From assembly GCA_021324675.1 (NCBI GenBank), contig JAJPIR010000136.1, positions 1-34,973 on the forward strand: a DNA stretch of 34,973 nucleotides. The letters run 5' to 3'. This document shows positions 9,120-31,671 of the stretch, piece after piece (positions within the stretch are counted from its first letter, which is position 1; each line of letters opens with the position of its first letter). This DNA comes from Actinomycetota bacterium. Its GTDB lineage: Bacteria > Actinomycetota > Actinomycetes > Mycobacteriales > Pseudonocardiaceae. The translations under genes and the position numbers were made by a program. The notes beneath the pieces were generated by a model. The model saw only the letters and a program-made list of their open reading frames with translations. It had not been told where the DNA came from and made no database searches.

Positions 9120-9920
9120 ATGACCAATGCTGGCTGCACGCTGGAGCCTACCCCGGGAACGGTCGGCCGCCATGTCAATGGTCGCGAGTATCTGATTAAT
9201 GTTCCGGCTGGATTACCTGGACCGTCGGCACCGTTGTTGCTGGGCCTCCACGGATTTCTCCAGGCTCCCCAGGAGCATGAGAAGGTAACCGGTTGGTCAG
9301 GGGTCGCGGCCAGCCAGAAATTCCTTGTTGCCTATCCCTCGGCCCAGCCGCAGCGATCGGCGTGGGACTTCAGCACGGGGTCCGATGACCTAGCCTATCT
9401 GCGCGACGTTGTCCGGGATATTTCCAGTACGTGGTGTGTCGACCCGCACCGGGTCTACGTGGAGGGCCATTCCAGTGGCGCGCTCATGGCGGCCCGGCTT
9501 GCGTGCGACGCGTTCGATCTGTTCGCCTCGGTTGCTGTCTACGCGGGCGTAGACCCATCGCTACTGGGTAGTCCCTGCGCTCAGGATCATTCAGCAGGCC
9601 GCGCGATTTCAATAGGTATCTTTCACGGCATCGACGATCCCATCAGCGATTTCCCGCTCGCTATCCAACACCGCGACAATTGGCTACGACGGAACGACTG
9701 CTCGTCTACCCCGAAAACGGAACCGAACGTACCGGTGGAAGCGTCTGTGTATGGACCCTGCAAAGCCGGTGTTGAGGTGGTGTGGCGGGTCTACAAGGCT
9801 GGGCATCTGTGGCCCACTGGCGCTGATGGCGTGGATATAATCCGGCGCATGTGGGAGTTCTTCCTGCGCAACCCCTTTCCGGCGTCCCCGTCCACGATCA
9901 GCACGGTGTCCTGCCCGTGA
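9120..9920 (+). CDS. PHB-depolymerase-family (LpqC-like) esterase
   Basis: 266-aa alpha/beta hydrolase of the carbohydrate-esterase-1/PHB-depolymerase group. The nucleophile elbow GHSSGA places Ser118, the acid is in HGIDDPI (D172 or D173), and the histidine is H229 in KAGHLWP. LLGLHGF supplies the oxyanion hole. No signal peptide is seen, unlike the lipoprotein LpqC of mycobacteria, so it should act in the cytoplasm unless exported otherwise. Substrates in the family include polyhydroxybutyrate oligomers and feruloyl or acetyl esters; which applies cannot be told. A GAGGAGG ribosome site precedes the ATG. The gene appears monocistronic and lies downstream of a palindromic motif shared with two other genes in the window. 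Confidence 0.85.
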   Translation: MTNAGCTLEPTPGTVGRHVNGREYLINVPAGLPGPSAPLLLGLHGFLQAPQEHEKVTGWSGVAASQKFLVAYPSAQPQRSAWDFSTGSDDLAYLRDVVRDISSTWCVDPHRVYVEGHSSGALMAARLACDAFDLFASVAVYAGVDPSLLGSPCAQDHSAGRAISIGIFHGIDDPISDFPLAIQHRDNWLRRNDCSSTPKTEPNVPVEASVYGPCKAGVEVVWRVYKAGHLWPTGADGVDIIRRMWEFFLRNPFPASPSTISTVSCP

Positions 9921-13536: not shown

Positions 13537-13920
13537 ATGACGAAAACGGACGCACGGGACAACTGCGTGGGCGTCAGCTACTTTTCTGCTCATGCCGCTG
13601 ACGATGCAGCGCAGGTGTTGTTAGGGATCAGCAAAGGGAATCCGGCTGCTTGGGATGAGGTTCTCCTCGGGTACAGCAAGGTCGTATCCGCGACCGTGCG
13701 GTCGTTTCGTTTGCAGGACTCTGACTCGCTCGACGCGATACAGACGACCTGGTTGAGGCTGGCTGAGAACGTCGACCAGGTGCAGTGTCCCGAGCGGCTG
13801 GGCGGGTGGCTCGCGACCACTGCACGCCGCGAATGTTTGCGCATCTTGCGCCAGGCCGATATGGACACGGTATTGACTCGGCATCTCCGAACTCGTTGTG
13901 GAGTCCTCGGCCGGTCCTGA
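13537..13920 (+). CDS. truncated sigma-70 (ECF-like) factor, region 2 only
   Basis: 127 aa. Residues 25-105 match sigma-70 region 2: AAWDEVLLGYSKVVSATVRS, DSLDAIQTTWLRLAEN and GGWLATTARRECLRILRQ are the usual core-binding and -10-recognition helices. The chain then ends (HLRTRCGVLGRS) with no region 4, which normally recognises the -35 element; full ECF factors are about 170-200 aa. No frame downstream restores a region 4 before the aspartate kinase gene. The start is good (GGGGAGG before the ATG at 13537). It is therefore either a decayed sigma gene or a region-2-only protein. The upstream palindrome and flanking small gene may be its former regulon. Confidence 0.7.
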   Translation: MTKTDARDNCVGVSYFSAHAADDAAQVLLGISKGNPAAWDEVLLGYSKVVSATVRSFRLQDSDSLDAIQTTWLRLAENVDQVQCPERLGGWLATTARRECLRILRQADMDTVLTRHLRTRCGVLGRS

Positions 13921-14041: not shown

Positions 14042-15067
14042 TTGCGAGTTTTCCGTTTGCGACGCAGTTCCGATATTGTCGTCATGAAGTTCGGTGGTTC
14101 GAGTCTGGCCAGCATGAGCGGTGTCCGCGCCGCTGCGCGACGGATGGTGGCCACGCAGCGGCGTGGCCACCAGGTAGTGGGCGTTGTTTCCGCGATGGCG
14201 TCTACGACCGACAACTTAATTCAGCTCGCGCGAGACATACTGGCCAAGCCGCCAGCTCGTGAACTGGACTTGATTACGTCCACAGGGGAGGTATTCAGCG
14301 CCGCGTTGACCGCGATGGCCGTGCGCGCTCTGGGAACTCCAGCGCTAGCACTCACCGGCGGACAGGCCGGAATTCATACCGACGACACGTTCGGTGCGGC
14401 ACGCGTGCTGAACGTGTGTCCTGGCCGCATTACAAAGTTCCTCGATAAGGGCGGAATCGTTGTGGTGACTGGATTCCAAGGTGTCGGCAGTTGGGGTGAC
14501 GTCACCACGCTGGGGCGTGGTGGATCGGACGCCACGGCCGTCCTACTCGCGGCAGCACTTGGGACCGAAACGTGCGAAATCCTCACTGACGTGGATGGTG
14601 TACACGCAGTCGATCCACGCCTGGTGCCTAATGCCCGTAAATTGTCCCAGGTCAGTTACCTGGACATGCTCCGAATGGCCGAGGCGGGGGCCAAGGTACT
14701 GCAACTGTGCGCCGTACAGTTAGCACGCGACCTTGGAGTCCCTTTACACGTGCGGTCGAGTTTCACGAACGTCGAGGGAACGCGGATCGGCACCGTGAAG
14801 GACAAGACAGACGGACTTGTGTTGTCTGTGGCGTACATCCGGGAATCTGGTAAGATCACCGTTCTAGCCGCGGAACCGGACGGTGGACCGGCGCTGACGA
14901 CCGCCGTGTTAGATGCCTTGGATTCTCACGGCATCCCAATCCTGCTGAGCCGAGCAGAGACCGACCGGGTCGTCATTTTTGTCGATAGAACGAAAATCGA
15001 CTCCTCTGTGCGAATTCTGTACACCCGCCTTATAGCTCATGTCGAACAACCATTAGTAAAAAACTAA
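14042..15067 (+). CDS. aspartate kinase, short form
   Basis: 341-aa amino acid kinase that phosphorylates the beta-carboxyl of L-aspartate. Motifs: MKFGGSSLASMSG (residues 15-27, ATP/phosphate site), LITSTGEVFSAALTA, VVVTGFQGV, TTLGRGGSDATAVLLAAAL and LTDVDGVHAVDPRLVP. Housekeeping Ask proteins are about 405-450 aa with two full ACT domains; here only about 75 residues follow the catalytic domain (KITVLAAEPDGGPALTTAVL, then VVIFVDR), so the regulatory part is reduced. Start is probably TTG at 14042 (GAAGGG 8 nt upstream), although the ATG at 14084 would still keep the KFGGSS motif. It is first in a plus-strand cluster with three amide-forming enzymes and an exporter, so it more likely supplies a dedicated Asp-derived unit than general metabolism (inference). 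Confidence 0.9.
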   Translation: MRVFRLRRSSDIVVMKFGGSSLASMSGVRAAARRMVATQRRGHQVVGVVSAMASTTDNLIQLARDILAKPPARELDLITSTGEVFSAALTAMAVRALGTPALALTGGQAGIHTDDTFGAARVLNVCPGRITKFLDKGGIVVVTGFQGVGSWGDVTTLGRGGSDATAVLLAAALGTETCEILTDVDGVHAVDPRLVPNARKLSQVSYLDMLRMAEAGAKVLQLCAVQLARDLGVPLHVRSSFTNVEGTRIGTVKDKTDGLVLSVAYIRESGKITVLAAEPDGGPALTTAVLDALDSHGIPILLSRAETDRVVIFVDRTKIDSSVRILYTRLIAHVEQPLVKN

Positions 15068-15083
15068 TCGGACGTAAAGAATA

Positions 15084-15215
15084 ATGAGTTATAGTACACT
15101 TTACCCGCCGCTCGTCGATGTCTTCGACGGCGCAGCGCAGGCGATTTGGGTGCTTCACCGAACCCCCCCTTTTCGTCAATGCAATTTTCGTTGTCGTTGG
15201 CTCCAAGAAGTATAG
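15084..15215 (+). CDS. possible 43-aa small ORF
   Basis: An ATG at 15084 opens 43 codons beginning MSYSTLYPPLVDVFDGA and ending in a Cys/Arg-rich tail (FRQCNFRCRWLQEV). The ribosome site is weak. It fills the gap between the aspartate kinase and Ddl-like genes. It could be a small peptide gene, a leader, or plain intergenic sequence; no family is recognised. Confidence 0.2.
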   Translation: MSYSTLYPPLVDVFDGAAQAIWVLHRTPPFRQCNFRCRWLQEV

Positions 15216-15270
15216 CTGCGTTACCGGCGACTGGCCAGTATCCTTTGCTGTTCAACCTCAAGGATGTGCG

Positions 15271-16284
15271 GTGATATCCAAAAGGGCACTTCAGAAAAAT
15301 ATACACAAACTGCGCGGCAAAAAGATTGCCGTGGTGTATGGCGCATCCTCTATGGAGGACGCCGCGTACATGAAAGCCGTCCCGCGGGATGAGTGGTCGC
15401 TCAGCGCAATCATGGCCGTGCTGAACGATTGTGGTCTGATTGCAGAGCACATTGATCCAACCGAACCCAGCTTTGTCGACGTCGTGCGCACATTCGACAT
15501 TGCTTTTTTGAATACTCACGGACCCTACGGAGAGGACGGCCGCCTTCAGGGCCTACTGGATTATCTGGGGATACCATACACTTGCTCTGGAGTACTAGCG
15601 AGCAGTATTGGCATGGACAAGCTGGTCACAAAGGCTGTATTCCGGCACCTCGATATCCGCACTCCGCCTAATTCCGGTCTATTGGACCTAGCTGACCCAG
15701 TTATGCCTGACAACGTCGGGCTTCCTGCCATGTTAAAGGCGGTCGACGGCGGCAGTAGCATTGGCTTGGAGCGGATCAAAACTGCCCGTGACTTGTCTCG
15801 TGCGATCCGGAGACTGGTGGATCGAGGATTTCATCGGTGCTTCCTTGAAGAGTTCGTCGAAGGTCGCTCCGTAACTGCCAGTGTGCTCGTCACCGAGGAC
15901 GGACCGGCGGTGCTTCCGCTTTTGGAGTGTATCACTGAAGCCACCTTCTACGACGAGGAAACAAAGCTTGGGAGGACGGAGGAGGCATCGATCGAATACC
16001 GTGTCCCTCTCGACCTGAGCGACCATATCACAACCAGTATTACCGAGGGCGCCTACGCTTTGGCAACGTTCCTCGACTGCAAAGGAGCCCTTCGCGTCGA
16101 CTATGTTATCGATCGACTCGGACACCCTTATGCCCTGGAGATAAACACTATTCCTGGGCTGCAGCGTCACAGCAACTTGCCGATCGCCTGCAAGGCTGCC
16201 GGACTCACCTATCAAGTACTGATCACGACGCTGCTGGCGCAGGTGGTCGAAGACACGGAAGTCCTCCGGTTGGTGTCTGCATGA
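15271..16284 (+). CDS. D-alanine-D-alanine ligase-like ATP-grasp enzyme
   Basis: 337 aa from GTG at 15271 (AAGGA 7 nt upstream); a frame to 15118 is open but its extra 51 residues resemble no Ddl N-terminus. Ddl signatures: NTHGPYGEDGRLQGLLDYLG, YTCSGVLASSIGMDK, LKAVDGGSSIGLE, LEEFVEGRSVTASVLV, LRVDYVIDRLGHPYALEINT and IPGLQRHSNLP. It should form an amide between two amino acids via an acyl-phosphate. In E. coli DdlB the second-substrate pocket has Ser-Leu before Val-Pro; here the equivalent is HSNLP, so the serine is kept but the leucine is Asn by my alignment, hinting at another acceptor. It is coupled to the MFS gene by an ATGA overlap. In this setting it is probably biosynthetic rather than the cell-wall Ddl. 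Confidence 0.88.
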   Translation: MISKRALQKNIHKLRGKKIAVVYGASSMEDAAYMKAVPRDEWSLSAIMAVLNDCGLIAEHIDPTEPSFVDVVRTFDIAFLNTHGPYGEDGRLQGLLDYLGIPYTCSGVLASSIGMDKLVTKAVFRHLDIRTPPNSGLLDLADPVMPDNVGLPAMLKAVDGGSSIGLERIKTARDLSRAIRRLVDRGFHRCFLEEFVEGRSVTASVLVTEDGPAVLPLLECITEATFYDEETKLGRTEEASIEYRVPLDLSDHITTSITEGAYALATFLDCKGALRVDYVIDRLGHPYALEINTIPGLQRHSNLPIACKAAGLTYQVLITTLLAQVVEDTEVLRLVSA

Positions 16285-17546
16285 TTTCCAGGTTAGGCAT
16301 CCTGCCCACCGAGGGTTCCCTACGCGCGTTTGCCATTGCGAATATAATCAACACTGTCGGAAGTGGACTGTATCTAGCGGGCAGTGCATTGTTCTTCACT
16401 CACGTCGTGAGGCTTGGCGTTGATCAGGTAGCTGTCGGGCTGACTATCGGAACTGCCGTCGGGCTTGCGTTGGCGACACGGTTCGGGCGCTTGGCCGACC
16501 TGTATGGTCCGAAACTGATCTACCTTGTGCTGCTGCTGGTACAGGCCTCTGCGATGGCGGCGTTCACTCTGGTCCGCAGTTATCTTGCATTCTTGGTCGT
16601 AGCCATCGTCAGCGGTATCGCCGATCGTGGGATTGCCGGCACGGTGGGAGCATTCGTTCACCATCTTGGTGGCCGGGCGAACCGACTTACGGCCCGAGCG
16701 CAGCTGCGAGCTACGACCAATGTGGGACTCGGAGTCGGAACACTACTCGCCAGCGCTGCCCTGGTCGCCAACACATCGACCGCGTACACACTTCTGATCG
16801 CCGGAAACTCACTTCTCTTCTTGATTACAGCCCTCATGGTCGCCAGGCTGGCGACACCACGAATACAATTACGCCCACGAGGCCAGAACGCCGCACTCCC
16901 GGACCGGTCATCACCGATCCGAAACCGCCCGTATCTGCTGGTAGCGGCAGGTAATGGGCTTCTTTCACTGCATGTCACGACATTGTCTTTTGCGGTGCCG
17001 CTGTGGATAGCGGATCGCACAACAGCACCGATCTGGATCCTTTCGGTGATCCTCGTGGTGAATACTGTGCTGGTCATCGGCTTCCAGGTACGGGTAAGTG
17101 CCGGCGCAAAGACCGTGGCCGGTGGTGTGCGACTGAGCCGTCGGGCAGGTCTCGCGTTAGCGACGTCTTGCATCTTGATGGCCGTAACACCCCATGTCGG
17201 ATCAGCCGTTGTAGTCGTACTGCTTTTGTTGTGGGCGTGCGTTTTCACCTTCGGTGAATTGTGCCAGTCGTCAGGAGGATTCTGCTTTAGTTTCGAACTT
17301 GCGCCCGACACCGCACACGGTGCCTTCCAGAGCGCGTTCTCGCTGGGACCCGGCGTGATGCGGGCCTGTGGACCGAGCCTTCTCGCCGCTTTAGTGCTCA
17401 AACATGGCACCGTGGGATGGTTTGCCTTGGCCATGCTGTTCCTGGTTGCCGCGCTCTTCACCTCTCTGGCTGCTGCTAGTGCGTCTCGACAGCTGTGTGT
17501 GGCGCCGGCTTCCATCGCTGGCAGCCGACCCGGCTTGGAAAAATAG
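16281..17546 (+). CDS. MFS exporter
   Basis: 421-aa major facilitator with about 12 hydrophobic segments. Motif A of the family is visible after helix 2 (GRLADLYGPKLIYLVLL). Its ATG overlaps the Ddl-like stop by 4 nt, so the two are co-translated. Later landmarks include the charged central loop around residues 193-215 and GPGVMRACGPSLLAAL near the C-terminus. Drug-export MFS proteins of this size commonly accompany antibiotic gene clusters and provide export and self-resistance. Here the likely cargo is the product of the surrounding amino-acid-ligating enzymes (inference from position only). Confidence 0.85.
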   Translation: MISRLGILPTEGSLRAFAIANIINTVGSGLYLAGSALFFTHVVRLGVDQVAVGLTIGTAVGLALATRFGRLADLYGPKLIYLVLLLVQASAMAAFTLVRSYLAFLVVAIVSGIADRGIAGTVGAFVHHLGGRANRLTARAQLRATTNVGLGVGTLLASAALVANTSTAYTLLIAGNSLLFLITALMVARLATPRIQLRPRGQNAALPDRSSPIRNRPYLLVAAGNGLLSLHVTTLSFAVPLWIADRTTAPIWILSVILVVNTVLVIGFQVRVSAGAKTVAGGVRLSRRAGLALATSCILMAVTPHVGSAVVVVLLLLWACVFTFGELCQSSGGFCFSFELAPDTAHGAFQSAFSLGPGVMRACGPSLLAALVLKHGTVGWFALAMLFLVAALFTSLAAASASRQLCVAPASIAGSRPGLEK

Positions 17547-17710
17547 GAATTAGATCTTTGCGGGAGCTTCAACACGTCGAACGGACTGCATATCGGCTTT
17601 GCTGATCCATCTCGCTGGGGCGCCGCAAACCGAAGTGTTCCGGCAATACGGTTTTGGTCCAGTTGGACGGGTCGCGCGATCATCCTCACGCCGAGATTAT
17701 GGAGGCAATA

Positions 17711-18895
17711 ATGCGCACCGAGGTTATCCAGAATATTTCATACCTCCAACCTGAAAAATGGGAGACCCTTACGGGAGGATCTTTCTACGCCAGTTATGCG
17801 TGGATGTGCTACCAGCAGACGGATCCAGCATCCGAGTCAAGATATGTCTTGGTATGGGACGATAGTGGTGAACTGCTGGCGGCAACGCCGGTGTATCTAG
17901 TGGAACACGAGGCGAGTGCTCGCTACGACCCTGCGTGCCTCTTTCCGCAGCTGCCCCAGCATGGCGGCGGCGCACCAGCCGTCCGACAGCAGCGAACACT
18001 GTTGGTCGGCAACCGCCGCGGCTATGCGAACCGCTTGCTCGTCAAGCCAGGCAGGAGTGCTGACGTGGCACTGCGGCTGCTACTGGCCGCCGTAAACGAG
18101 ATCGCGGCTGAGGAAGCCAACGAGCGAGCGTGGTGGCTCTACCTCACCGAGGACGACATCGTCTGGTTGAGCAAGGTCGGGACCGGAATGGTCTTATCTC
18201 CTTGGCTTCTGGCCGCCGACTGCGTAGTCACCTTACCGGGTGAGTCGTTCGACGAGTACTTAGCGATGCTGTCCAAGAATGCGCGAAGGCAGGTCCGTAA
18301 GGACCGCGTGACGTTCGCGGCGGCGGGATACAAGTGCACCACTCTACGACTTGATGAATGCTGGCGGCAAGTCAGCCCACTAATCGCTTCCCATCAGCGT
18401 TGGCACGGACATATATCTAGTGATGAGATCATTCGCGATCTCATGCATGCGCAAGCCATGACGGCGGGCGCACACAGTCGGGTTTACGGCTGCTCGAATG
18501 CTCACCAGTTGGTTGCATGTGCCATTACCTTCGCTACCAGTGCCGAGCTTGTGGCGCGAGCCTTCGGCTTTGATCACGCACGCGGCCACAGCGCTTGTGA
18601 GTATTTCGAGTTGATGTACTACCGCCCGATCGAGTATGCGTACCAGCATGGTATGCAACGGCTCCATCTCGGCATTGGGACGCTACAGGCGAAAATCCGA
18701 CGCGGTGCCCGTGTGCGCCTGCTCTGGGGCATCGCCACGGGATCGAGGATCCATCCCTCCGAGGCTGGCATAGCCGAAACGCATAACGCAGCCTACTGGC
18801 GTGTCATTGTCGAGCAACTCGGCAACCAATGCCCAGCTCTCATACCGTCGGTTCTTCTCGCAGCTCAAGAACTACGGCGCTCGGCCGTACAATGA
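17711..18895 (+). CDS. FemAB/DUF482-like N-acyltransferase (GNAT fold)
   Basis: 394 aa from the ATG at 17711, preceded by GGAGG; a longer frame from 17654 lacks a ribosome site. An N-terminal half begins SFYASYAWMCYQQTDP and carries VLVWDDSGELLAATPVYLV. The C-terminal half has the FemAB/peptidoglycan-recognition pattern: MLSKNARRQVRKDRVTFAAA, a long helix with IIRDLMHAQ, ACAITFATSAELVARAFGFD, FELMYYRPIEYAYQHGMQRL and LGIGTLQAKIRRGA. Related proteins transfer an acyl or aminoacyl group (from CoA or aminoacyl-tRNA) to an amine. Which donor is used cannot be told. Next to a Ddl-like and an ATP-grasp ligase, it is likely a third amide-forming step. It ends 18 nt before the next gene. Confidence 0.75.
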   Translation: MRTEVIQNISYLQPEKWETLTGGSFYASYAWMCYQQTDPASESRYVLVWDDSGELLAATPVYLVEHEASARYDPACLFPQLPQHGGGAPAVRQQRTLLVGNRRGYANRLLVKPGRSADVALRLLLAAVNEIAAEEANERAWWLYLTEDDIVWLSKVGTGMVLSPWLLAADCVVTLPGESFDEYLAMLSKNARRQVRKDRVTFAAAGYKCTTLRLDECWRQVSPLIASHQRWHGHISSDEIIRDLMHAQAMTAGAHSRVYGCSNAHQLVACAITFATSAELVARAFGFDHARGHSACEYFELMYYRPIEYAYQHGMQRLHLGIGTLQAKIRRGARVRLLWGIATGSRIHPSEAGIAETHNAAYWRVIVEQLGNQCPALIPSVLLAAQELRRSAVQ

Positions 18896-18913
18896 AGGGA
18901 CATTCTACCGCTC

Positions 18914-20212
18914 ATGGGTGATTCATGGTTTGTCTGCATTGAACTGCACACACTACCTGGTGGTGTTCGAACACTGCCATCGGCAGGAGAGGTAGTGACG
19001 GCCTCAAGTGCAGCCGCACTACAGGCTGCACGCCAGATCGGCCTACGCACGGCGGTAGTTGTCACCGACCGCGTATTCTACGGTCATGCGTTCGACCATC
19101 TCGTTGACGAGTGGCTGGTCGCCGACACCTCAAGCGCGGCGAATGTTATCAGGGCCCTGACCACCTTGAGCGGTGCTGTCGTCGCAGTAACCAGCTCCGT
19201 GGACAGTTTCGTTCGGGTTGCCGCGAAGGTCTCTCGTGCACAGCATCTTCTCGGTCCCACTCCGGACGGCGCTGGAATTAGGCGAGACAAGTCCGCTGCA
19301 CGCCAAGCACTTGCCGCTGCTGGAATGCCGGACATCCGATGGGGCGTGCAAGACGCCACCGATGAAAATCTCACCTCCCCCATTGGCTATCCTGCCGTCG
19401 TTAAACCAGTCGACGGAGCAGCCAGTTGGGACGTTGTATTGGTCAACAATGATTACGACGCCCGTGCGCTCGCCGCGCGCCACCTGGGTAGGACCACGTA
19501 CGGTCGAGGGGTCACCCCATGCCGGCGCCTAATATTTGAGCAGGTCCTGGAAGGCCCAGTCTACAGCGCTGAAGGGATCATCGACACCGAAGGCATCACG
19601 GTGTTCGGCTACTCCGACCGGGTGATGACACCCCCACCTTATTACGTGGAGCTCGCAGTACGGTTTTCCGCGGAACGGCCTTTCCCCGACGCGGATCAGT
19701 ACGTGGCGGACTGTTTGCGAGCGCTTGGCTACGATTTCGGGCCCTTTCACCTCGAGTTTGTTGTCACCCCGGACGGGCCTCGACTGTTGGAACTTAATCC
19801 ACGCCTGGTCGGTTCGGGGAATCAGTACGCCATCAGCCGCCTCACCGGTACTGCACCAGCTGCGGTCCTCGTTGCCAAGCTTGCGCGCCAGGCGTCGCCA
19901 ACACTGCAGTTCGCTGGCGCAGTCACCGAACTGCGTCTTACTGTCAATCTGACCGGTCAACTCGTGCAGTACCAAGGGCTTGATGAGGCGGTACGGTCAC
20001 CGGGCTGCCACGCGGCAGGTCTCTATGTCGCAATTGGCGACCAAGTCAGTCACGTGGTGGAGTCCAACAGTCAACTGGTGGGCTACGTACAGGCCATCGG
20101 ACTCGACCGTGAAGACTCCTATAGAAAAGCCGCTGCTGGCGCAGAGCGGATCAAGCTTCACATCAAGCCCAGCGCGAATTGTCGCCTGATTCCGCGACAC
20201 ACTGATCACTAA
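18914..20212 (+). CDS. ATP-grasp amino acid/peptide ligase
   Basis: 432 aa. An N-terminal Rossmann-like pre-ATP-grasp domain (residues about 1-125) is followed by the ATP-grasp fold: DKSAARQALAAAGMPDIRWG, YPAVVKPVDGAASWDVVLVN, RRLIFEQVLEGPVYSAEGII, GPFHLEFVVTPDGPRLLELN and PRLVGSG. The Glu-x-Asn-Pro-Arg metal site is intact. A C-terminal cap domain (from about 335) resembles those of L-amino-acid ligases (BacD type), carnosine synthase and PurK-like enzymes. It should join two amino acids or an amino acid and a peptide with ATP hydrolysis. The best start is the ATG at 18914, with AAGGGA upstream at a rather long spacing. It is the last gene of the five-gene cluster. Specificity is unknown. 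Confidence 0.85.
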   Translation: MGDSWFVCIELHTLPGGVRTLPSAGEVVTASSAAALQAARQIGLRTAVVVTDRVFYGHAFDHLVDEWLVADTSSAANVIRALTTLSGAVVAVTSSVDSFVRVAAKVSRAQHLLGPTPDGAGIRRDKSAARQALAAAGMPDIRWGVQDATDENLTSPIGYPAVVKPVDGAASWDVVLVNNDYDARALAARHLGRTTYGRGVTPCRRLIFEQVLEGPVYSAEGIIDTEGITVFGYSDRVMTPPPYYVELAVRFSAERPFPDADQYVADCLRALGYDFGPFHLEFVVTPDGPRLLELNPRLVGSGNQYAISRLTGTAPAAVLVAKLARQASPTLQFAGAVTELRLTVNLTGQLVQYQGLDEAVRSPGCHAAGLYVAIGDQVSHVVESNSQLVGYVQAIGLDREDSYRKAAAGAERIKLHIKPSANCRLIPRHTDH

Positions 20213-20318: not shown

Positions 20319-20441
20319 GTGCCGTATAAGGCGATCTTGCTGGTTGGGTCGCCTGGGGGTAGCGCTAGTTTTCTTGCTCGGGATGATCGACGGCATCTTT
20401 CCGTGCTGGGGCCTAGCCGGTTTCGGGAGCAAGCATCATGA
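20319..20441 (+). CDS. 40-aa small ORF coupled to the decarboxylase gene
   Basis: GTG at 20319 with a strong GGAGGG site 7 nt upstream opens 40 codons. The peptide contains YKAILLVGSPGGSASFLARD and ends SRFREQAS. Its TGA overlaps the ATG of the decarboxylase gene (ATGA), so ribosomes could pass directly from one to the other. Such a leader could serve translational coupling, or the protein may be a real small subunit or the tail of a lost gene. No family is recognised. Confidence 0.45.
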   Translation: MPYKAILLVGSPGGSASFLARDDRRHLSVLGPSRFREQAS

Positions 20442-21811
20442 CGACCGATCTTCGTCACCTGTTGACGCGCACCGCTGACATTGCGCTGCGGTACCTCGAA
20501 ACCTCCGGTGAGCGCCCCGTGGCTCGCGGTGTGTCTCTGGAGCACTTGGTGGCGGCGCTGGGTGGCCCGTTGCCGGCTGGGCCGACCGACTCGGCGCAGG
20601 TGATCGAGTCGTTGGCTCGAGGCGCCGATGTTGGTCTGGTGGTCACCAACGCTGGGCGTTACTTCGGATTCGTTGAGGGTGGCGTTGTTCCCGCAGCGCT
20701 GGCGGCTGATTGGCTCACCTCGGCCTGGGATCAAAACCCCGCCTTTTTCGCGTTGTCACCCGCTGGCGCCGCAGCCGAGGAAGTGTGCCGCGGCTGGCTG
20801 TGTGAGCTGTTTGGCCTGCCGGAGACCTCCTCGGCCGGGTTCACCACGGGGGCTCAGATGGCCAACTTCGCGGGACTTGCGGTGGGAGTGCGTCACGTCT
20901 TGACCGCAGCGGGGTGGGATGTCGAGGCCGACGGCCTGTTCGGGGCCCCGGAAATCACCGTCGTGGTCGGTGAGGAAAGGCACGCCACCGTGGACCGGGC
21001 GCTGCGCTTGCTGGGATTTGGCAAGCGGCACATCACCGCAGTGGCAGCCGACGATCAGGGCCGGATGCTCGCAGCGGCGCTGCGCGACGCCCTCGGTGAC
21101 GGACCGGTCATCGTGTGTGCGCAGGCCGGCAACGTCAACACCGGTGCGTTCGACCCCTTGCGCGAGATCTGTGGGATCGCCCACCAGCACGGCGCCTGGG
21201 TGCACGTCGACGGTGCCTTCGGTCTGTGGGCCGCGGCTACGCCCTCGCTGCGCCACCTAGTCGACGGGGTGGGGCTCGCCGACTCCTGGGCGACCGACGC
21301 CCACAAATGGCTCAACGTGCCCTATGACTGCGGCATCGTGCTGTGCGCACATCCTGGCAGCCACCAGGCGGCGATGACGCTGTCCGCGGCTTACCTCACC
21401 CGCACCGGCAGCCGCGACGGCACCGACTGGACGCCCGAAAGCTCGCGGCGAGCCCGCGCCTTTGCGGTGTGGGCCGCGCTGCGCAGTCTCGGTCGCACGG
21501 GTGTCGGCAACCTTGTCGAACGCTGCTGCGCCCAAGCGCGTCGCTTTGCCGAGATCCTGTCGGCCAACGATCAGGTCGCCATCCTCAACGACGTCGTCCT
21601 CAACCAGGTGCTGGTGCGCATCGCAGACGACGACGAGCGCACGCGCGCGGTTGCGGCCGCAGTCCAAGCCAGCGGGGTGGCCTGGCTTAGCACCACCGTG
21701 CGGCAGGGCAAGACCGCGTTGCGCATCAGCGTTTGCGACCACGCCACCGACGACGCCAACATTGCGGCGGCTGCGCAGGCCGTGTTGCGCGCGGTGGCTG
21801 GAAATCTGTAA
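20438..21811 (+). CDS. PLP-dependent group II decarboxylase
   Basis: 457-aa fold-type I PLP enzyme of the aromatic-amino-acid/glutamate/tyrosine decarboxylase group. Motifs: GYFGFVEGG-like GRYFGFVEGGVVPAAL near the N-terminus, the substrate-pocket region FTTGAQMANFAGLAVGV, HVDGAFGLWAAA (Asp binding the pyridine nitrogen) and DSWATDAHKWLNVPYDCG with the Schiff-base lysine K290. Length fits the family (450-520). The product would be an amine from an amino acid, or, as in some members, an aldehyde. Aspartate 1-decarboxylase-like activity is possible but not provable. It starts inside the stop codon of a 40-aa ORF and precedes a methyltransferase gene by 165 nt. Its codon usage is G/C-richer than that of the cluster upstream. 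Confidence 0.85.
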   Translation: MTTDLRHLLTRTADIALRYLETSGERPVARGVSLEHLVAALGGPLPAGPTDSAQVIESLARGADVGLVVTNAGRYFGFVEGGVVPAALAADWLTSAWDQNPAFFALSPAGAAAEEVCRGWLCELFGLPETSSAGFTTGAQMANFAGLAVGVRHVLTAAGWDVEADGLFGAPEITVVVGEERHATVDRALRLLGFGKRHITAVAADDQGRMLAAALRDALGDGPVIVCAQAGNVNTGAFDPLREICGIAHQHGAWVHVDGAFGLWAAATPSLRHLVDGVGLADSWATDAHKWLNVPYDCGIVLCAHPGSHQAAMTLSAAYLTRTGSRDGTDWTPESSRRARAFAVWAALRSLGRTGVGNLVERCCAQARRFAEILSANDQVAILNDVVLNQVLVRIADDDERTRAVAAAVQASGVAWLSTTVRQGKTALRISVCDHATDDANIAAAAQAVLRAVAGNL

Positions 21812-27837: not shown

Positions 27838-28098
27838 ATGGAGAACTCGCCGTTAGCGCAGTTCATCGAGAGGGTGAAAGGCGACGAGGGCCTCAGACAG
27901 CGGGTCTACGACGCCGAGAAGGCTTTGGTCCGCGACATCAAGGGCCATACGGACATCATCACCCGGATCGCGGCCGAAGCGGGGTACGACATTACGGGCT
28001 GGAATGGCCGCCCGGAGGCACGGCCGACGCGCGAGGAGCTGGAGGCGGGGGACTCCTGCACGTTAACGTGCTGCGCTTCGTTGACCTCGACTCTCTAG
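27838..28098 (+). CDS. Nif11-type lanthipeptide precursor 1
   Basis: 86-aa class II lanthipeptide precursor with a Nif11-like leader (residues 1-55: LAQFIERVKGDEGLRQRVYD, then IITRIAAEAGYDITGW). A short linker (RPTREELEAG) leads to a 15-residue core that starts after the probable Ala-Gly cleavage site at 70-71: DSCTLTCCASLTSTL. The core has three Cys and seven Ser/Thr, fitting several (methyl)lanthionine rings. A GGAGG site lies 5 nt before the ATG. The LanM gene starts 33 nt downstream. The leader aligns without gaps to precursor 2 through residue 59. Leader removal normally requires a C39-type peptidase, none of which is seen nearby. Confidence 0.9.
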   Translation: MENSPLAQFIERVKGDEGLRQRVYDAEKALVRDIKGHTDIITRIAAEAGYDITGWNGRPEARPTREELEAGDSCTLTCCASLTSTL

Positions 28099-28131: not shown

Positions 28132-31100
28132 ATGAACGGTCACCTGCCTCGGCGCGTTTCCCTTCATCGTGCCCTGTCGGCGAGTACCAGCGACACCCGG
28201 CGACCACGCGTATTTGCCTACACGAGCGCTGGAGGCAAAATCTCTGACTCCTTCACCGACATAACGGCCTGGCTGCAGAGCTCAGCCCCGATCGGCGAGG
28301 CGGACCCGCCGCCGCCCGGCCCGGCCGTTCCCTTCGCCGAGCTGTGGCAGCGCCTTGCTGCCGCCGCGATGGACCAGCTGGCAGAGCCACAGGCTGAGAT
28401 CCGCGCGGATCTGACCGCAGACCTGGTCGCGAGGCTGTCCGCCGTCGGCGAGGCCACGCTGTGGGCCGAGTTCAACACGCGCCGCAGGCCGCGCGACGTG
28501 GTGATCGAGCACCTGCGTCCCGGCGGGCCTGGCCGCGCGATCTACTGCAGTTTCCTGGAGGAGTTGCGCAACGACGGGCTGCGGTCGCTCACTGCCCGGT
28601 ATCCCGTCCTGCGGCGCCACCTCGCGACAACCGTGCGGCACTGGCGGGAGGCGAATCGAGAGCTTTTGACGAGGGTCCGCGCCGATCGCGGGCTGCTCGC
28701 CGACGCCTTCGGGGTGCCCGCCGGCGCCCAGCTCGCAGGCGTCCAGCAAGGCCTCAGCGACCCGCACCGCGGCGGGCGGACCGTCGCCGCTTTGACATTC
28801 ACTCACAGCGGCGATCGGCGCCACATCATGTACAAGCCGAAGGATCTCAGACTGGATCGCGCGTTCCAGCAGCTGCTCGCCAAGGTGCCGAGGCCGACCC
28901 TCGCGGATACCGCGCTGCGAAGCATCGCCGTCTTGCCGCGCAACGGCTACGGATACATGGAATGGGTGCCGCACGTGCTGTGTGACGGCGACCGGCAACT
29001 TCGCTGCTTTTACCGCAACGCGGGTCGGTTGGCCGCGGTCTTATATCTGTTGAGTTGCGCCGACTGTCACCACGAGAATTTCGTCGCGCAGGGTGACCAG
29101 CTGCTTCTGGTCGACGGTGAAGCGCTGTTTCAGGGCACGCCCTGCGACCGCAACACCGACCGCAGGCAGTCGGTGGTCCGGTCCGGGCTCTACGACCGGA
29201 TGAGCGACTCGGTCGTGCGGCTCGGGCTGCTGCCGCAGTGGCACTTCGCCGGCGCAAAGCGGATCCCGCAGGACGTGAGCGCGCTGGGCATCGCGCCGCC
29301 TCGGAGCGCTCAGCGGGAGGAAATCGGCTGGGTAAAGCTAGGCACCGATGGGATGATCGCTGGCCGGGTCGAGCGAGCCACCGGCGTGCCGACCTCGTCG
29401 CCTGTCGGGGTCGGCAGCCGCAACCGGCTCAGCGACTTCGCTGGGGATTTCTGCGGCGGCTTCGAGGCCCAGCTTGTCGCTATCTCGGCCGAGAAGCGGC
29501 GCTGGCTCGGCAACGCCGGGTACCTCGCGCGGTTCAAGCACCATCGGAGCCGCTTCGTGCGCAGGGCCACGTGGGTCTACCTCTGGGCGCTCAAGCAGCA
29601 GACCGAGCCGGAGGCGCTGGCGTCGGAGTCCGGGCAGCGGCGAGTCAGGGCGAAACTCGGCCGCGATCGAGTTCCCTTCCTCGCGCGACCGGCCGATCCT
29701 CGCGTGGTCGCCGCAGAGGCCGCGCAGCTCGATGACCTCGACGTGCCCTTCTTCGAGCAGCCGGTCGATGGGATCGACCTGATCGCACCCGACGGCTCCA
29801 CGATTCCCGGCTACTTCGAGATGAGCGGCTACGACAGCGCACGGCGAAAACTCGAGCAGCTCGACACTGCGGCGATCGACCTTCAGATCGCGCTGATCCG
29901 CGGCGTCATCGCGGCGAAGGACATGCACGCGCACCGCCCACCACGGCGCGATCCGTCAGCGAGCGGTCGCCGTCTGGACGAGCCGTCATCCGCGGAGCGC
30001 CGAAGCGAGGCCGCGGCCATCGGTGACGTCCTCGTGTCCACCGCGATCAGCGACGACACGGGAGCGGTGGAGTGGCTGGGGATCGACGTCGCTGAGGACA
30101 CGGAGCGCTCGAGCTACCGGCCGCTTGGACTTTCTCTCTACGCCGGCCGGACCGGGATCGCGCTATTCCTGGCAGCGCTCGCCCGCGGTTGTGCTGCACG
30201 CAGCGACACCTACGCGCGCACCGCGATGGGCGCCTGCTCAGACCTCAACCGGGTCTACGACGGTCGCAACACAGTGGAGGACGGCCGAGGCTGGTGGCGC
30301 GAGCAGCCGCTTGGCCTGGCGGGAGGCGGAGGCGTGCTGCTAGCCCTCGTCCACCTGCGCGGACTGCTGCCAGCGGTCGCGCACCAGGCGGACCGCGTGA
30401 CATCGTTCCTGCTCGACGCGCTCGATCCGGACGTCCTTGCGTCCGACAAGCACCTCGACGTGATTTTCGGTTGCGCCGGCTTGATCGGTCCGCTGCTCGC
30501 CATCGGCACGCCCTGGGCGCTGGCGCTCGCCCGGGCGGCCGGCGACGCACTGGTCGAAGGCCAGGACGGGTCGGGCGGCTGGGTCACCCGATCCAGCGGG
30601 GACATGGCTCTCACCGGGTTCTCACACGGAGCCTCGGGCATGGCCGCCGCGCTGGTCCGGCTGCACTCGGCCACCGGGTGCAGCGACTACCTAGACGCGG
30701 CCGCGGCGGCGATAAGTTGGGAGCGCCGCCGCTTCGACCCTGCGGCGGGCAACTGGCCCGACCTGAGGGGTAATCCCGAGCCAGCCAAGGCGCGATTCAT
30801 GCTGAGCTGGTGCCACGGCGCTCCCGGCATCGCCCTAGCCCGACTCTGCCTCGCTGGCACGGCGTTGTGGGACTCAAGCGTCGAGGAGGAGCTCCACCGC
30901 GCGCTCGAGTCGACGGCGAACCAGACGCTGCCCGAGGACTCGCTGTGCTGCGGGCGCTTCGGGCGCGCGGCGATCCTCCGGATGGCTGCCCGGCAAGCGG
31001 GCGAACGGCGGTGGCTGGAGGCGGCGATCCAGCTCGAGGCGCAATGCCTCGAGCGCAGGCGCGCGACGGGAAGCTACAGCTTCCAGGATGTGCCGGGGCT

Positions 31101-31256
31101 GTTTCAGGGCACCGCCGGCGGCTTGCGTTGCTCGACGAGAACGGCTGGCTCATGCCGGCCGTCCTGTCGGCCGGCTTGCACGTGGGCGCCAAGGACTTCA
31201 CGGAGGAAGACTGCTCCACCAGGGCCACTGAACCGCAGGGAGGATGGGCGCAATGA
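28132..31256 (+). CDS. lanM: class II lanthipeptide synthetase LanM, frameshifted near 3' end
   Basis: About 1041 aa after frame repair. N-terminal DUF4135 dehydratase: MYKPK (K235-K237), ADCHHEN (D311, H313, N316) and VDGEA (D328, E330) are the phosphorylation/elimination residues. C-terminal LanC-like cyclase: SWCHGAPG (C894) and LCCGRFG (C939, C940), a three-cysteine zinc site of the ProcM kind. At about 31120-31123 one base is missing after GLFQGTAGG: the original frame runs on to 31593 as Arg/Pro-rich junk, while the +1 frame resumes LALLDENGWLMPAVLSAGLH and stops at 31256 in an ATGA overlap with precursor 2. The start at 28132 has a poor ribosome site. Function: dehydrates Ser/Thr in both precursors and adds Cys. 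The break may be a sequencing error or a recent inactivation. Confidence 0.92.
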
Positions 31257-31537
31257 ACGGCGCGACGATAGAGCAGTTCATCGAGAGGCTAAAGACCGAC
31301 GACGCGCTACGACGGAGAATCCTCGAAGCCGAGAACGCCGCGGCGCGCGACATCAACCGCGGCACGGACGCGATCACGCAGATCGCCGCGCAAGAGGGCT
31401 TCGACATCCGCGGCTGGCCGGGCCGCCCGATCACCGAGCTGCCGCCGGAGACGGAAAGCGACTTCGGGTGCTGCACGCTGACCTGCTGCCTGGCGTATAC
31501 CTCGGCGACCATCGCCGAGGACAGGCCCTCCTCTTGA
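31253..31537 (+). CDS. Nif11-type lanthipeptide precursor 2
   Basis: 94 aa from the ATG at 31253, with AGGGAGG about 9 nt upstream and a 4-nt overlap with the frame-repaired LanM stop. The Nif11-like leader (IEQFIERLKTDDALRRRILE, then AITQIAAQEGFDIRGWPGRP) closely parallels precursor 1. The core region after about residue 70 is FGCCTLTCCLAYTSATIAED plus four residues. CTLTCC occupies residues 74-79, the same positions as in precursor 1, but there is an extra preceding Cys and a longer hydrophilic tail. The canonical GG/GA cleavage site is unclear (ETESDFG). Co-translation with LanM suggests it is a true substrate. Both peptides may act together or as alternatives. Confidence 0.9.
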   Translation: MNGATIEQFIERLKTDDALRRRILEAENAAARDINRGTDAITQIAAQEGFDIRGWPGRPITELPPETESDFGCCTLTCCLAYTSATIAEDRPSS

Positions 31538-31671
31538 CATCGCTGGTCAACCATCTTGGACAAGCAGCCCCACGAGCCCAACTCCCTGCGTAGAGCTCCT
31601 CACGGATCATCGTGGCGCGTGAGGATGCCCGCGCCGGCAAGTTCGTAGTCAGCGGCGCCGGTGATCGCCCA

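Follow-up and report, generated by a model that had tools for sequence, protein, structure and literature searches.

The window analysed here, a stretch of 34,973 nucleotides covering positions 1 to 34,973 of contig JAJPIR010000136.1 (assembly GCA_021324675.1), comes from an Actinomycetota bacterium of the family Pseudonocardiaceae. Between positions 14042 and 20212 it carries an island of five consecutive plus-strand genes, which encode an aspartate kinase homologue (AK), a D-Ala-D-Ala-ligase-like enzyme (DDL), a major facilitator superfamily protein (MFS), a FemAB-like transferase (FEM) and an L-amino-acid ligase (LAL). A sixth gene, overlooked in the five-gene description of an earlier sequence-only reading, is present as the remnant of a C39-type peptidase gene. 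The features of the island, with the evidence for each, are:

14084..15067, plus strand: AK, aspartate kinase homologue with a shortened C-terminal part (Pfam, NCBIfam, alignment to the housekeeping AK, codon usage)
15271..16284, plus strand: DDL, D-Ala-D-Ala-ligase-like ATP-grasp enzyme of a C39-linked subfamily (Pfam, alignments including the PDB, residue table)
16281..17546, plus strand: MFS, predicted exporter (Pfam; 43-57% identity to the MFS of six related loci)
17559..17702 (approximate), plus strand: remnant of a C39-type (papain-fold) peptidase gene (tblastn and profile matches)
17711..18895, plus strand: FEM, FemAB-like (PF04339) transferase, perhaps aminoacyl-tRNA-dependent (Pfam, alignments, fold matches from a low-confidence model)
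18914..20212, plus strand: LAL, BacD-type L-amino-acid ligase with ATP-grasp_4 and LAL_C2 domains (Pfam, PDB matches; 44-61% identity to six related loci)

All five open reading frames (ORFs) exist and stay open, and the family assignments of the sequence-only reading were confirmed by Pfam matches above cut-off: AA_kinase (154.9 bits) for AK, Dala_Dala_lig_C (118.6) and Dala_Dala_lig_N (41.5) for DDL, MFS_1 (45.3) for MFS, FemAB_like PF04339 (64.3) for FEM, and ATP-grasp_4 (42.1) and LAL_C2 (34.5) for LAL. Its statement that the gene set lacks nonribosomal peptide synthetase (NRPS), polyketide synthase (PKS) and ribosomally synthesized and post-translationally modified peptide (RiPP) enzymes also held, as Pfam found none among the five proteins. 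Some starts had to be adjusted. The AK ORF opens at a TTG at 14042, and the ATG at 14084 is the more likely start from the in-frame starts and homology; the DDL ORF opens at an ATG at 15118, and homology points to the GTG at 15271, which leaves about 200 bp between AK and DDL; and the likely FEM start, judged from in-frame and homology starts, is the ATG at 17711. The MFS start and the DDL stop share a 4-bp overlap. A scan for promoters and terminators gave no signal above that of shuffled sequences, and the inverted repeats that lie about the island, which are 21-24 nt long and 79-87% complementary, were unconvincing as island ends.

Related loci were sought with a LAL alignment, from which two peptide patterns were used in one scan of genomes (a collection described as covering 84,980 species). 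The scan yielded six, and more members may exist:

L010, Streptomyces megasporus
L011, S. viridochromogenes
L012, Streptomyces sp. AP-93
L013, S. sulfonofaciens
L014, S. wedmorensis
L015, a Frankiales metagenome-assembled genome

When the window proteins were used as tblastn queries, four of the Streptomyces loci (L011, L012, L013 and L014) displayed DDL, MFS, FEM and LAL, in the order DDL-MFS-C39-FEM-LAL once the C39 gene between MFS and FEM is included, with identities to the window proteins of 53-56% for DDL, 53-57% for MFS, 45-51% for FEM and 57-60% for LAL. The locus of S. megasporus is damaged: a 5'-shortened MFS is followed by C39, FEM and LAL, no DDL match was found in it, and a transposase gene (L010:6347-7240) lies where DDL and the start of MFS would be expected. 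The Frankiales locus reads DDL-LAL-MFS and then reaches the contig end. The family appears sparsely distributed. LAL matches at E<=1e-60 occurred in 6 of 392 Streptomyces genomes, three of which an exact 200-base check identified as L010, L012 and L013, and at E<=1e-30 in 2 of 396 genomes of the phylum, namely the genome of the window and one with 35% identity. Three further LAL loci were rejected as family members: those of G906 and G982 (L025, L026) have no other cluster gene within 20 kb, and that of G834 (L024) is a lone partial match near a chromosome end. Judged by gene order and identity, the island core is a rare actinobacterial cluster family with the core DDL-MFS-C39-FEM-LAL. We tentatively favour, at a little less than an even chance, the view that the island is an acquired operon of this family which produces a short peptide by an NRPS-independent route, exports it, and includes a DDL or DDL-C39 module for a D-dipeptide.

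The composition of the island bears on its acquisition. The G+C fraction at third codon positions (GC3) is 0.635 for AK, 0.621 for DDL, 0.626 for MFS, 0.651 for FEM and 0.612 for LAL, against a mean of 0.810 (sd 0.040) for 11 comparison genes of our own choice, seven from the window and four from contig C206 of the same genome. That set left out window ORFs with GC3 values of 0.675 (astacin-like), 0.682 (esterase-like, at 9120-9920), 0.711 (sigma-like), 0.740 and 0.743. The first three come closer to the island and speak against a sharp border, so the island stands apart less clearly than the mean of 0.81 suggests, although the difference itself is real. Among 11 genomes of the genus, DDL itself was present in that of the window only; the matches in the ten relatives, 28-37% identical, are their other Ddls, and an order-level search at E<=1e-40 matched 2 of 298 genomes with the genome of the window counted. 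Horizontal transfer of the island, AK included, is the best reading. The A/T-richer third positions noted in the sequence-only reading were thus borne out, and its idea of transfer as a single unit agrees with GC3, codon usage and the restriction of DDL within the genus.

The place of AK within the set required separate consideration. The protein scored above the cut-off of TIGR00657 (279.3 against 208.7 bits), the AK subfamily model, and below that of TIGR00656 (293.7 against 402.25 bits). The C-terminal regulatory region of a full AK consists of two ACT domains; in the alignment the island protein lacks the last 80 or so residues of the housekeeping AK, and Pfam found no ACT match in it (the housekeeping AK itself was not scanned with Pfam). 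All six related loci were without an AK match at E<=1e-4, within 10-kb flanks where the contigs allow and shorter ones in L012 and L015. AK therefore looks like a lineage-specific addition and not part of the defining set, and as the related clusters apparently manage without an AK, an aspartate-derived product class is not a necessary assumption. The recurrence of the neighbourhood stood for DDL, MFS, FEM and LAL, which co-occur in four Streptomyces loci; the inclusion of AK among the defining genes and the aspartate-derived product that the sequence-only reading proposed were not upheld. The absence of AK from all six relatives, together with the gap of about 200 bp to the likely DDL start, would suit the explanation that AK, and perhaps other genes, landed by chance beside an unrelated ligase cluster and do not act together. 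We consider this very unlikely: AK matches the other four genes in GC3 and codon usage (mean codon-usage distance 5.78 to DDL, MFS, FEM and LAL, against 7.43 to the 11 comparison genes), a search of 120 family genomes at E<=1e-85 returned the AK of this genome alone with none comparably close in the 119 others, and DDL, MFS, FEM and LAL are conserved together. Nor is the island a housekeeping set as far as AK and DDL are concerned, because another AK adjoins asd on contig C206 and two other Ddls lie on contigs C171 and C281; second copies of MFS and FEM were not looked for. Neither of the two outcomes that the sequence-only reading named as refuting it, genes that never co-occur elsewhere or genes that are each the sole housekeeping copy, was thus observed.

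The DDL subfamily differs from ordinary D-Ala-D-Ala ligases at two positions. In the window protein the active-site Lys is followed by L284 (K-L in place of K-Y) and the Ser by N353 (S-N in place of S-L/M). By the example of E. coli DdlB and the Van ligases, these two positions shape the pocket for the second substrate. In a residue table from which four fragmentary or distant DDLs (L031, L093, L097 and L113) were left out, all 32 cluster or C39-linked DDLs lacked both the Tyr and the Leu/Met: the residue after the Lys was Leu in 25, Ile in two and Arg in five, never Tyr, and Asn occupied the Leu/Met position in every case. The six comparison Ddls, two from this genome and four from the genus, all had Tyr and either Met or Leu, one of them with Arg for the Lys. 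Seven other tabulated active-site residues were identical in 32/32, save for the Ser column with Gly or Ala in some. With these residues kept and the second-site pair changed, it is fair to predict that the subfamily still ligates dipeptides but accepts a different second substrate, and hence makes a dipeptide other than D-Ala-D-Ala.

Between MFS and FEM, all five Streptomyces loci have a further gene, roughly 200 codons long. Three of the four cluster proteins that were scanned passed the Pfam peptidase-C39 cut-off, the fourth falling slightly below it, and residues Q21, C48 and H139 (L013 numbering; Gln, Cys and His) were invariant in ten of ten aligned relatives, the presumed third catalytic residue being Asp, Glu or Asn. 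Five cluster rows were used for an AlphaFold2 model (mean pLDDT, the predicted local confidence, 82.5), whose best matches were double-glycine peptidases (6mpz, E 2.3e-6), with the primitive phytochelatin synthase Alr0975 and the pseudomurein endoisopeptidase PeiR lower down. What is left in the window (17559-17702; tblastn E=1.9e-8, profile E=2.5e-11) is only the 3' tail, which begins past the catalytic His and therefore carries neither the catalytic Cys nor the His. No further C39 profile match and no match to the M15 or VanX-family peptidases (PF01427) was found in the genome, which is 95% complete, so that absence elsewhere is likely and not certain. These data bear on the idea that DDL and C39 are themselves biosynthetic, with the DDL dipeptide extended by LAL and FEM, C39 trimming or transferring the peptide so that the mature product results, and the neighbouring M15 and alanine racemase (Alr) genes incidental. 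The close linkage, seen in the 4-bp overlap of DDL and MFS and in the position of C39 between MFS and FEM in all five Streptomyces loci, and the transpeptidase-type Alr0975 among the papain-fold matches speak for it. We nevertheless hold it rather unlikely, given that in the neighbourhoods examined DDL-C39 pairs with Mur domains and without LAL or FEM were commoner than the cluster.

These pairs were traced on plasmids and in Streptomyces genomes. A tblastn search of 72,556 plasmid records with the C39 protein (E<=1e-6) gave three matches, all in Streptomyces, and the surroundings of these were examined along with two (H1, H2) of the 84 records with a DDL match. The gene orders were DapF-Ddl-C39-MurF C-domain (L030, L040), C39-MurF with a short Ddl piece (L031), and MurC-MurF-Ddl-C39 with a pyridoxal phosphate (PLP) enzyme gene, annotated as Ser/Thr dehydratase, between Ddl and C39 (L041, L042); the MurF part in L030 matches the C-terminal Mur domain only. 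The C39 profile matched in 91 of 392 Streptomyces genomes. Forty neighbourhoods were then read, a hand-picked and non-random sample made up of the 20 that ranked highest once the three cluster loci were set aside, and 20 lower ones. Ddl was matched in 24, a MurF domain in 26 and at least one of them in 27, the DapF-Ddl-C39-MurF C-domain order appeared in 18 and a PLP gene in four. The DapF-type cassette thus extends over L075-L092 (18 Streptomyces genomes), L030, L040 and the IMG/VR contig L016; MurC, MurF, Ddl, the PLP gene and C39 stand together in L041, L042, L095 and L098, on Streptomyces plasmids or contigs, where they form a possible alternative precursor pathway. We infer a racemase role for the DapF-like and PLP genes, only a possible one for the PLP gene of Ser/Thr dehydratase type. 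In most of the DapF-type loci compared, a conserved helix-turn-helix-like gene and small genes, one NUDIX-like by eye, lie upstream. Because L016 carries this cassette and not the cluster, a viral origin of the island was rejected, with no phage-family search of the window made.

The recurrence of DDL-C39 with DapF-like or PLP genes and Mur-ligase domains points to D-dipeptides of the peptidoglycan type, and not only to a free peptide. One consequence could be that the island remodels peptidoglycan precursors and exports no peptide: DDL would form an alternative terminal dipeptide, C39 or VanX would remove the normal one, FEM would add a branch amino acid in the manner of VanK, LAL would prepare a dipeptide substrate, and MFS would guard against an outside antibiotic. 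Besides the Streptomyces cassettes, an M15 (VanX-family) match beside three of the six clusters (that in L015 lies in two frames and has no Pfam hit), an Alr gene beside one (L012) and the FemX-like fold of the low-confidence FEM model are in keeping with it. So is the occurrence of C39 and M15B peptidases in the van loci of Ktedonobacteria, which tend to lose vanX according to a published survey of van genes (PMC9689679); independently of the present data, it hints at a function of C39 peptidases alongside ligases of the Ddl type. However, it is hard to see what a ligase of free amino acids and an exporter would do in wall remodelling, MurF, DapF and Ser/Thr-dehydratase-type matches occurred in none of the six cluster loci, and relatives of FEM and LAL on two plasmids sit in a biosynthetic setting; we judge this explanation unlikely.

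A broader view, which we regard as doubtful, would make DDL-C39 an undescribed peptidoglycan-precursor module, frequent in Streptomyces and analogous to VanA-VanX, that in one rare branch provides immunity within a non-NRPS peptide cluster of LAL, a tRNA-dependent FEM and the exporter. A racemase (DapF-like, the PLP enzyme of the Ser/Thr-dehydratase family, or Alr) would supply the D-amino acid, the ligase with its re-tooled second site would make a new D-dipeptide, and the papain-fold peptidase would remove the normal dipeptide. The MurF domain would take the new dipeptide, and the cluster product would be expected to target the D-Ala-D-Ala branch.

LAL matched solved L-amino acid ligases in the PDB (30vh, 3vot), and its scores fell far below the NCBIfam equivalog cut-offs for DdaF (31.4 of 840 bits) and BacD (19.2 of 850 bits). 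The FEM structure model is of low confidence (61.7), and its fold matches, at template-modelling (TM) scores of about 0.4, are led by the aminoacyl-tRNA-dependent FemX, Sbb17, Sba18 and FemA. Relatives of FEM and LAL with 24-31% identity occur together on two Streptomyces plasmids among the 144 plasmid records with a LAL match, adjoined by an annotated MFS gene, a 2-oxoglutarate (2OG)-Fe dioxygenase and a methyltransferase; a hypothetical protein on these plasmids resembles a LysA-type decarboxylase by eye. As a control, 20 neighbourhoods were drawn from 45 genomes with LAL profile matches: FEM, DDL, C39 or AK occurred in none, MFS in one and a weak PLP-gene match in one, so the grouping is not a general habit of LALs. 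A separate Streptomyces locus (L155) has three LAL matches and an MFS match of 34% identity, and is possibly another ligase-based peptide cluster.

In the acquired peptide operon that we favour, LAL would join two free amino acids via an acyl phosphate, FEM would add an aminoacyl group from an aminoacyl-tRNA, and MFS would export the product, presumably a small peptide or modified amino acid. DDL, as its two changed second-substrate residues suggest, would form a D-amino-acid dipeptide other than D-Ala-D-Ala, and the C39 partner would cut or transfer a bond of the D-dipeptide type. Together they could constitute a Van-like module, which would either shield the peptidoglycan pathway of the producer or provide a building block. 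AK with its shortened regulatory end might raise the flux through aspartyl-phosphate to an aspartate-derived precursor. The loss of C39, in a genome without a VanX-family match, could reflect a changed product or decay of this copy.

Several observations weigh against this proposal. The loss of C39 speaks for an ancestral pathway that has been broken here, and the copy in this genome may have changed or be in decay. Since DDL-C39 is also found where LAL and FEM are missing, its role could be independent of a peptide product, and 13 of the 40 C39 neighbourhoods, all at profile E 5.8e-40 or weaker, contained neither Ddl nor MurF. M15 and Alr lie near only some clusters, and the Alr of L012 may be the housekeeping copy. 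LAL homologues at large show no linkage to FEM, DDL, C39 or AK; the window MFS did not match the MFS protein annotated on the two plasmids; and the FEM model also matched acyl-CoA-type GNAT proteins further down, such as the tandem GNAT 2wpw. Finally, we know of no product or activity for any member of the cluster family.

GC3 is 0.77-0.81 in the upstream LuxR gene and in three downstream genes (PLP decarboxylase, methyltransferase and FadD). The latter three probably lie outside the island; they were rejected as cluster members on GC3 and on zero matches in the loci of the relatives. The PLP decarboxylase (20438-21811), comparison-like in GC3, has matches of only 28-33% identity in nine of ten genus relatives and none in the tenth. 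Directly upstream of the island (13537-13920) is a short extracytoplasmic-function (ECF)-sigma-like ORF whose sole match is to region 2; it may represent a sigma factor gene that has been truncated. A separate class II lanthipeptide locus (27838-28098, 28132-31593 and 31244-31537) begins 7.6 kb downstream, with a LanM of 668 bits to TIGR03897 and GC3 0.80 and two precursor-like ORFs, the downstream one having a Nif11 match slightly below the Pfam cut-off. A role in anti-phage defence was rejected, since PADLOC matched none of the five proteins submitted (AK, DDL, FEM, LAL and C39).

The six related loci, four of them in Streptomyces with all five core genes, define a testable family of short-peptide clusters that mining centred on NRPS and PKS genes would probably miss; no paper describing this gene set was found in the open-access PMC literature by title and start of abstract, which is weak evidence of absence. 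The analysis also exposes a DDL subfamily that lies near a C39 gene in 24 of 40 Streptomyces neighbourhoods, in most cases accompanied by a MurF domain and either a DapF-like or a PLP gene. If its dipeptide is incorporated into peptidoglycan, antibiotic producers would possess a van-like system with a new set of enzymes; incorporation into a product would instead mark a cell-wall-directed peptide.

Among known systems, the bacilysin-type pathways (BacD, and DdaF of dapdiamide) share with the island a LAL with ATP-grasp_4 and LAL_C2 domains, to which the weak NCBIfam matches correspond, an MFS exporter and the lack of an NRPS. The island differs in that its LAL is well short of both equivalogs, no other enzyme of those pathways was found among its five proteins by Pfam, and DDL-like and FemAB-like partners are present, with a C39 peptidase gene in the relatives. 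In the D-cycloserine cluster, a Ddl and a putative membrane transporter are proposed to confer self-resistance (PMC6804068). The resemblance lies in an extra Ddl homologue adjoining an exporter in a small non-NRPS cluster, as DDL and MFS do here. The island DDL, however, lacks the ordinary second-site residues, and Pfam found no other dcs-type gene among the five proteins. Sbb17 and Sba18, the tRNA-dependent Fem-like peptide synthases, match FEM at the level of fold, whereas identity is 14%, the model is of low confidence and the island protein belongs to PF04339. With vanHAX(K) and the Ktedonobacteria van loci the island and its related cassettes share a Ddl-like ligase with peptidase partners (C39, M15), a Fem-type enzyme and MurF- or racemase-type genes. 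Unlike vanHAX, there is no VanX-family match (PF01427) in this genome, and Pfam detected no VanH (D-lactate dehydrogenase) in the island proteins, to which that search was confined; the ligase is nearer to ordinary Ddls than to VanA in the PDB comparison (best 151.5 against 88.9 bits, the latter for 3se7), and LAL and the exporter are additional.

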